Assembly: GCA_018896875.1 (NCBI GenBank)
Contig: JAHILT010000017.1
Coordinates: 1 to 52,494 of the forward strand
Direction: 5' to 3'
Length of the DNA: 52,494 nucleotides
Origin: Patescibacteria group bacterium
GTDB lineage: Bacteria; Patescibacteriota; Minisyncoccia; UBA6257; 02-FULL-45-10c
The translations under genes and the position numbers were made by a program. Positions 3,660-46,938 of the stretch are shown here, piece after piece. The notes beneath the pieces were generated by a model. It saw only the letters and a program-made list of their open reading frames with translations. It made no database searches and had not been told where the DNA came from. The stretch's first letter is position 1. Every line of letters starts with the position of its first letter.

Positions 3660-3676
3660 TTACGTGTTTTATTTAA

Positions 3677-3690
3677 TCTCACGCGTGAGA
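3677..3690. promoter_or_regulatory. Palindrome core TCTCACGCGTGAGA upstream of a sigma70-like promoter
   Basis: 14 bp perfect palindrome, same core as at 45014-45743. Confidence 0.7.
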
Positions 3691-3723
3691 CCAAAAGTTT
3701 AAAAAAATAGCTCGATAATTTTT

Positions 3724-5456: not shown

Positions 5457-5474
5457 GGTTTTACGCGTGAGACC
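5457..5474. promoter_or_regulatory. Degenerate copy of the GTCTCACGCGTGAGAC palindrome
   Basis: ggttttacgcgtgagacc; deviations from the palindrome would be G.U wobbles in RNA. Confidence 0.55.
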
Positions 5475-36628: not shown

Positions 36629-36654
36629 TTTATTGACGTGATTTTTAAAATAAA

Positions 36655-36682
36655 CCCCCACACTTATATATAAGTGTGGGGG
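36655..36682. terminator. Convergent intergenic hairpin, likely bidirectional terminator
   Basis: cccccacactta-tata-taagtgtggggg between converging genes. Confidence 0.7.
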
Positions 36683-36700
36683 TGGGTTGGAAGGAAAACA

Positions 36701-45013: not shown

Positions 45014-45041
45014 TCCATAGTCTCACGCGTGAGACTATGGA
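45014..45041. promoter_or_regulatory. 28 bp perfect palindrome, core GTCTCACGCGTGAGAC
   Basis: tccatagtctcacgcgtgagactatgga. Confidence 0.85.
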
Positions 45042-45093
45042 CTTTTTTAAAAATCACCCATTTTTTAATTATTTTACTTTTTAAGTAATTATA

Positions 45094-45123
45094 TTCTTTA
45101 GTCTCACGCGTGAGACTAAAGAA
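45094..45123. promoter_or_regulatory. 30 bp perfect palindrome, same core
   Basis: ttctttagtctcacgcgtgagactaaagaa. Confidence 0.85.
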
Positions 45124-45221
45124 CCTTTAAGGTTTTTAACTGTCTACTTTATTGTTTTTTTAATTACCTTTTTATCAAGTTTTCGATTATCCAGTTTTTA
45201 CTTTTTACTAAGTAGCTATCC

Positions 45222-45257
45222 TATCCCCATGGTCTCACGTGTGAGACCATGGGGATA
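45222..45257. promoter_or_regulatory. 36 bp palindrome, same core with one central mismatch
   Basis: tatccccatggtctcacgtgtgagaccatggggata. Confidence 0.85.
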
Positions 45258-45272
45258 ATGTAAATTCTAAAG

Positions 45273-45659
45273 CTATAAAATATTTAAAATATTTTCTGCG
45301 CCTTTATATTTTCGCTGATAAACTCTTATTTTTTTATGTTTTGTTAGAGTTGAATATTTTCTTTTTCTGTTGGGATTTTTACTATATCTTCTACCTTCTA
45401 AGATATCTTTTGTCTTACTTATTGTATTCGCCGAAACATTTAGAATTTTTTTAATATCACAATATTTTTTATTTTGATTTAATAGTTTCATTGTCGCTAT
45501 TCTTCGAAAAATAATACATTTTTCATAATCAGTTAAAAACTTATCAAAGAACTTATTTAAACTATCAATAGAATTAATATTTTTGAATTCTCTTAATAAT
45601 TCATTAATAATTTCTTTCTCAATAAACTTATCTAGTTTTTTATTAATTGAAGACTTCAT
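45273..45659 (-). CDS. TrpR/YerC-like helix-turn-helix DNA-binding protein
   Basis: FLTDYEKCIIFRRIATMKLLNQNKKYCDIKKILNVSANTISKTKDILEG; start set at ATG 45659 rather than the GTG at 45725, which lies in a palindrome. Confidence 0.75.
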   Translation of the reverse strand: MKSSINKKLDKFIEKEIINELLREFKNINSIDSLNKFFDKFLTDYEKCIIFRRIATMKLLNQNKKYCDIKKILNVSANTISKTKDILEGRRYSKNPNRKRKYSTLTKHKKIRVYQRKYKGAENILNIL

Positions 45660-45693
45660 ATTAAATTGATTGCTATTTTTTATATCAATAATA

Positions 45694-45699
45694 ATTATA
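45694..45699 (-). promoter_or_regulatory. Extended -10 (TGATATAAT on minus strand) for the TrpR-like gene
   Basis: minus strand tgtgaTATAAT, with the 45710-45743 palindrome over the -35 region. Confidence 0.6.
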
Positions 45700-45709
45700 T
45701 CACAATAAA

Positions 45710-45743
45710 CCTTACTTAGTCTCACGCGTGAGACTAAGTAAGG
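45710..45743. promoter_or_regulatory. 34 bp perfect palindrome, same core, upstream of TrpR-like gene
   Basis: ccttacttagtctcacgcgtgagactaagtaagg. Confidence 0.88.
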
Positions 45744-46547: not shown

Positions 46548-46938
46548 AATTTTTTAATTTTAAATAATTATTTTACAAATAAGTTTAACATAAATTTATA
46601 GTGTGAGACATGTTTAATGTTTCACGAATTACATTAATTACATTTTACGTATAAGACTATACACAATGTTTGTCGTGAAACATATCGATATGTTTTTTGT
46701 ATGTTTTAAGTTATTTATGGGCAACATGGATTGTTTCACGAATTACATTAGATACATTTTATATATGAATTATTTATAATGTTTGTCGTGAAACATATTC
46801 GTGCGTCTATATAATAGAATAATACAATTTTTCCATGAATTAGATTATTAATAATTGAGTATAACTTGATGTTTCACGTTTTACATAATAATTATTTTAA
46901 GCATAAACTTGTAACCGATGTTTCACAAATTGTTTCAC
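46333..46938. repeat. Cluster of ten GTTTCAC/GTGAAAC motifs including two ~67 bp repeat units
   Basis: Motif starts: 46333, 46352, 46365, 46619, 46675, 46733, 46788, 46871, 46920, 46932; units 46618-46685 and 46732-46798. Confidence 0.85.

Follow-up and report, generated by a model that had tools for sequence, protein, structure and literature searches.

A TrpR-Like Gene Bracketed by Its Predicted Operators Marks an Apparent REP-Like Palindrome Family in Patescibacteria

Introduction

Why should a gene for a TrpR-like helix-turn-helix (HTH) protein be surrounded by long palindromes that keep one core but carry different, still self-complementary, outer arms? We pursued this question for a 52,494-nt stretch of DNA (hereafter, the window) from a 0.79-Mb Patescibacteria genome, in which a sequence-only reading had noticed four such palindromes and taken them for either autoregulatory operators or RNA hairpins. 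The usual partners of REP-like palindromes are RAYT transposases. We know of no identified helper for in-gene palindromes such as RPEs.

Results

Palindromes and TrpR-Like Gene of the Window

We found all four palindromes (28, 30, 36, and 34 bp) at exactly the positions reported (Table 1). They share the core GTCTCACGYGTGAGAC; the inner core TA/TG-GTCTCACGYGTGAGAC-TA/CA is fixed, and the outer arms vary yet pair over 14–18 positions. The arms differ between copies, which rules out simple duplication as the origin of the palindromes, as the sequence-only reading had held. At up to two mismatches, the core gave 12 strand-matches (6 sites) in the window compared with 0.03 expected from dinucleotide shuffles. 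Perfect palindromes with a half-arm of at least 12 number seven in the 52-kb window, and four of these are the gene-bracketing set. Further exact cores occur elsewhere in the same genome (G000) at C13:645 (the same locus as C24:47), C66:1773, and C75:4694. Palindrome 2 and the C66 copy have the arm TTCTTTA in common, and palindrome 1 and the C75 copy share the arm CCATA on the left side only.

Table 1. Features of the TrpR-like locus and solo core copies in the window
Feature	Position	Strand	Description
Decayed solo core copy	3676..3691	.	1 mismatch; intergenic, without long arms
Decayed solo core copy	5458..5473	.	2 mismatches; intergenic, without long arms
Palindrome 1	45014-45041	.	TCCATAGTCTCACGCGTGAGACTATGGA; 28 bp, half-arm 14; T-run on + strand after it (terminator-like)
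Palindrome 2	45094-45123	.	TTCTTTAGTCTCACGCGTGAGACTAAAGAA; 30 bp, half-arm 15
Palindrome 3, candidate post-stop operator	45222-45257	.	TATCCCCATGGTCTCACGTGTGAGACCATGGGGATA; 36 bp, half-arm 17, 2-nt centre GT unpaired
TrpR-like HTH gene	45273..45659	-	128 aa from ATG; PF01371 (Trp_repressor)
Extended -10 of TrpR-like gene	45702-45694	-	TGATATAAT; directly 3′ of palindrome 4; read from sequence
Palindrome 4, candidate promoter-side operator	45710-45743	.	CCTTACTTAGTCTCACGCGTGAGACTAAGTAAGG; 34 bp, half-arm 17

Other repeats were seen along the way. Two contigs of G000 (C13:645 and C24:47) carry the same tsaD/aspS spacer with slightly different flanking gene sequence, which suggests mixed strains within the assembly. 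An isolated 30-bp perfect palindrome, ACCCCCACACTTATATATAAGTGTGGGGGT, lies at 36654-36683 of the window, outside the gene-bracketing family. The spacer beside a YraN gene (46617-46935) carries repeated TGTTTCACG...CGTGAAACA half-sites reminiscent of parS, the ParB site TGTTTCACGTGAAACA.

The start of the TrpR-like gene is likely the ATG at 45659-45657 (128 aa) rather than the GTG at 45725 (150 aa). Its product scores above the curated Pfam cut-off for PF01371 (32.7 bits vs. 27; E = 7.7e-8), and this was the only Pfam domain to pass its cut-off; no transposase or nuclease domain was found in the protein. The label TrpR/YerC-like holds at the level of the family but not at that of the equivalogs, since the protein falls below the NCBIfam cut-offs for both YerC/YecD (TIGR02531; 23.1 bits vs. 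42.2) and the trp operon repressor (TIGR01321; 19.8 bits vs. 67.25). Closest by sequence in the PDB is 3g1c (E = 0.0078), the TrpR-like/HisR protein of Eubacterium eligens, which is treated as a HisR in PMC9413887. Orthologues in four genomes (G003, G004, G010, and G036) are 48–53% identical, and our search of phage records found no homologue. A single-sequence AlphaFold model had a mean pLDDT of 52, too poor for a fold match.

Gene and Palindrome Pairs Across the Order

We searched 246 genomes of the same order with Pfam PF01371 and obtained a match in 88, a patchy distribution. The matching proteins fall into two length classes, ∼95–117 aa and ∼125–170 aa. The window gene belongs to the long class, which is itself patchy and reaches nine genes in one genome (G133). 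We retrieved 80 long-class loci, giving 85 genes with that of the window included, and found at least two copies of one locus-specific core within 1.3 kb of 76 of the 85. The usual layout has one palindrome over the promoter and one just past the stop codon. Among short-type (∼100-aa) TrpR loci, 1 of 24 had such a shared-core pair. Up to 500 bp from the HTH domain, perfect palindromes have a density of 1.44/kb, compared with ∼0.1/kb farther out. The general form of the core is YR-N16-YR, 20 bp long, with CACTATCTCATGAGATAGTG (G038), TGCTACAGTTAACTGTAGCA (G133), and TGCTACCCTATAGGGTAGCA (G001) as examples, and several paralogues with private cores can coexist in one genome.

The exact window core was absent from the 60 relatives that we searched, most of those examined having their own, different palindrome at the homologous gene. 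Elsewhere in GTDB, the exact core occurs in 95 stretches from scattered taxa; none of them adjoins a long TrpR-like gene, and we regard these matches as unrelated.

Palindromes of other kinds also came up. At short-type loci L144, L145, and L148, ∼100-aa TrpR genes have nearby CACTTTAGTTAACTAAAGTG / ACTTTAGTATACTAAAGT palindromes similar to the Escherichia coli trp operator, with three copies in L145. Bacteroidales/Bacteroidaceae metagenome-assembled genomes (L016, L019, L035, L053, and L092) contain tandem arrays of TGTCTCAC-NN-GTGAGACA hairpins; the arrays have a 22-bp period, vary in loop and spacer, and have no relation to TrpR-like genes.

Predicted Operators

The operators of TrpR/HisR proteins are 20-bp palindromes with a lineage-specific consensus (PMC9413887). 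At the long-type loci, we found an extended -10 no more than 30 bp 3′ of the promoter-side palindrome in 23 of 74 cases and in none of 75 for the downstream palindromes, against a background of 1.9%. In the window, the -35/spacer region of the TrpR-like gene lies under palindrome 4, which is followed directly by the extended -10, just as had been claimed. The claim that the other three lie just 3′ of the gene suits palindrome 3, whose centre is ∼33 bp past the stop codon (the median for downstream palindromes in relatives is 28 bp), but the other two are centred ∼165 and 245 bp beyond, towards the next gene. The more similar two proteins are, the more similar their half-sites tend to be (Mantel r = 0.405; the largest value in 1,000 permutations was 0.112), with some phylogenetic structure remaining in this correlation. 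Four of the 12 best-tracking protein columns (96, 98, 99, and 100, numbered on the 150-aa ORF) fall in the HTH region.

The 20-bp TrpR/HisR-type symmetry, the promoter-side placement, and the way in which the relatives' differing palindromes follow the gene bear out the autoregulatory option, and on this comparative evidence, the palindromes are well supported as predicted operators of the TrpR-family protein whose gene they bracket. The operator form and its position are also what the main rival to our preferred reading would lead one to see: an ordinary TrpR-family transcription factor that controls itself and a small regulon, its palindromes maintained as operators by selection and nothing in the system mobile.

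Outer Arms and the RNA-Hairpin Reading

Covariation of the arms proved to be general in other copies. Measured from the centre, complementarity is ∼95–100% at positions 3–8, 92% at position 9, and 82% at position 10, and it reaches background by about position 21. At positions 11–16, a base pairs with its own partner in 57% of cases, with the corresponding base of another copy of the same element in 43%, and with that of unrelated copies in 27–28%. Binding by a homodimer would explain the symmetry of the inner 20 bp but leaves that of the outer arms to some other cause. Perfect reverse-complement arms can be created and repaired by template switching (PMC8794818). The view that covarying arms imply selection for pairing was, therefore, too strong, because a homodimer would suffice for the inner 20 bp and a templated DNA process such as template switching could produce the outer arms with no selection. 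An inherited site in the MurD gene (described below) has short arms, and many species-specific sites have long ones. Most likely, the outer arms are footprints of template switching or fold-back that decay with age, and not protein contacts or RNA stems; these patterns are suggestive of such an origin rather than proof of it.

Perfect stems with compensating arms and the T-run after palindrome 1 are features that RNA hairpins would also have, whether as terminators, mRNA stabilizers, or RNA sites for the protein. On the gene strand, G·T and A·C mismatches number 142 and 113 at positions 9–16, compared with 460 and 384 at background positions 21–40, and an excess of G·T over A·C is, therefore, absent. 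Most copies have no T-run, and some sites lie within coding sequences. Among the four window copies, one has a clear T-run and two pass a lax scan for intrinsic terminators, which does not mark the set as terminators. An Rfam search of the palindromes returned no family at gathering score, and we discarded weak miRNA matches as chance fits to perfect hairpins. We consider the RNA-hairpin option, the second one offered by the sequence-only reading, very improbable.

Dispersed Copies and Copies Inside Genes

Degenerate core patterns gave 1–34 copies per genome. Two of the scans, with 1–13 and up to 24 copies, were run with a reversed-pattern control, which had no matches. Richer genomes hold about 10–30 dispersed palindromes, coding regions included. 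At least three degenerate-core copies were present in 40 of the 88 genomes with a PF01371 gene vs. 5 of the 158 without one (Fisher p = 3e-16); those five, with no detected PF01371 gene, are G009, G039, G057, G123, and G162.

We checked the surroundings of 43 solo sites. By simple ORF prediction, with alignment to relatives for MurD, TrmL, Pgk, and KsgA only, 16 of the 43 are inside ORFs; the others are in tandem, convergent, or divergent spacers. Perfect half-arms of at least 13 occur at 21 of the 43. The in-ORF sites translate in frame, giving, for example, the peptide GTITRDSA, and alignments prove in-frame palindromes in the MurD, TrmL, Pgk, and KsgA genes of relatives. We saw no in-gene palindrome in the genome from which the window comes.

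In TrmL, the inserts are about 24 nt long; in MurD, they reach ∼51 nt. Three congeners share a MurD insertion of ∼17 codons that three other genomes lack, and the palindrome lies close to the middle of this insertion. The palindrome DNA differs among the three (TACTATGACGCGTCATAGTA, TGTTATGACGCGTCATAACA, and TGCTATGCTACCGCATAGCA), indicating that both halves changed together in situ; the peptide is not constant. In the TrmL loop of four genomes (G040, G227, G231, and G232), a palindrome sits at one shared codon, and three different cores are represented among the four. Their congener G059, without a detected long-type gene, is also without the TrmL-loop palindrome. An ordinary regulator could accommodate these two cases, in that the same-codon trmL sites, each with the core of its own genome, could be inherited functional sites, and MurD halves that change in step fit sites co-evolving with their protein. 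It does not readily account for the share of solo sites that lie within ORFs.

Coding loops of trmL (L356) and ksgA (L332) in G223 contain a further repeated motif, GCTACCGCAAGTTGTAGC or the complement of this sequence, which is an imperfect palindrome of another type.

Gain and Loss Between Genomes

Two congeners differ sharply in core copies, with 21 in G228 and 2 in G042, which keeps the TrpR-like gene but has no solo sites. Two gene-plus-palindrome units of G228 (C8:18933-19019 and C7:39725-40328) are missing from the orthologous positions when the whole of G042 is compared. Such a difference could mean that one lineage gained the units or that the other lost them. The flanks of candidate empty sites were located in these two genomes, the intergenic spacers being too diverged to read insertion boundaries or the origin of the arms. 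At the place adjacent to yifB/comM, G228 and G042 carry different subfamilies (24% identity, E = 0.40).

The interval from yifB/comM to ksgA is occupied by different TrpR-like subfamilies in several f27 genomes (L176, L228, and G042 C4:112661-119457) and is an apparent hot spot for TrpR-like genes. We set aside, as evidence of mobility, the homology between G221 and G223 that ends at palindromes, since the pilin-like genes on the two flanks may be orthologous.

Noc/NBS, SlmA/SBS, and MatP/matS are systems in which one DNA-binding protein uses short palindromes dispersed over the chromosome, also in coding regions. The numbers and coding-region positions of the palindromes in richer genomes would suit a chromosome-organizing system of this type, with the palindromes marking the chromosome. 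We find this improbable: a gene as patchy as this one is ill-suited to a core chromosome function, several paralogues with different cores occur per genome, copy number changes tenfold between congeners, and the gene here has its own sites on both flanks. A stronger candidate is an ordinary regulator whose sites co-evolve with it, although we judge this reading unlikely, given the same change in copy number, the several private-core paralogues per genome, the whole units that are present or absent at orthologous loci, and arms whose self-complementarity past the 20-bp core it leaves unexplained.

Discussion

From these sequence comparisons, we favor, with a probability of roughly 0.58, a TrpR-family autorepressor whose predicted operators behave as REP/RPE-like dispersed palindromes spread by host-aided copying. 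The TrpR-like protein would bind the 20-bp core as a dimer and repress its own promoter, and the gene with its bracketing operators would form a small selfish unit. Because the protein lacks any recognizable catalytic domain, the DNA copying that would spread the operator in the manner of REPs or RPEs probably draws on replication or repair by the host. Templated copying, by fold-back or template switching at the palindrome, would leave the outer self-complementary arms, which would then decay with age. The sequence-only reading was right about operators and missed their dispersal, their clade-wide spread, and their entry into coding sequences.

A bolder version, which we put forward tentatively, is that a repressor and its own operators are by themselves a minimal selfish element: binding may promote templated copying through the replication or repair machinery of the host, so that operators multiply, enter genes, and force protein specificity and site to co-evolve continually. 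Such a repressor–operator element, if real, would amount to mobile DNA lacking any transposase.

The system offers dispersed, partly in-gene palindromes that are linked gene by gene, across a clade, to a repressor-type DNA-binding protein. Its dozens of natural protein–site pairs provide a series for the study of TrpR-fold specificity, and the origin of compensating palindrome arms becomes directly testable. Our literature search found no account of TrpR-like genes with dispersed palindromes in CPR bacteria.

Among known systems, TrpR/HisR (YerC) regulators share the PF01371 HTH family, the 20-bp lineage-specific operator form (PMC9413887), and a promoter-side site. The proteins described here are longer (∼125–170 aa) and have basic C-terminal motifs (GKGRW.., YKGA.., and RTKYG..), and unlike TrpR/HisR, their genes are bracketed on both sides, their operators are scattered and sometimes inside genes, and many paralogues of private specificity occur per genome. 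REP/REPIN sequences with their RAYT genes (PMC3116915) likewise comprise a gene flanked by its own palindromes, dispersed solo copies, and species-specific sequences. However, RAYT is a Y1/HUH transposase, whereas the flanked gene here encodes a TrpR-like HTH protein, and REPs number in the hundreds and are almost all extragenic, compared with the ∼5–30 copies and many in-ORF sites found here; near-perfect symmetry with variable self-complementary arms is a further difference. The RPEs of Rickettsia (PMC3767692) also sit in frame in housekeeping genes, at sites shared by orthologues and with differing element types, but they are 100–150 bp long, compared with ∼24–50 bp here, where a cognate DNA-binding gene is identified. 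Judged by these sequence features, the palindrome family looks like an apparently new type of REP-like repeat, one whose partner gene encodes a repressor and not a transposase.
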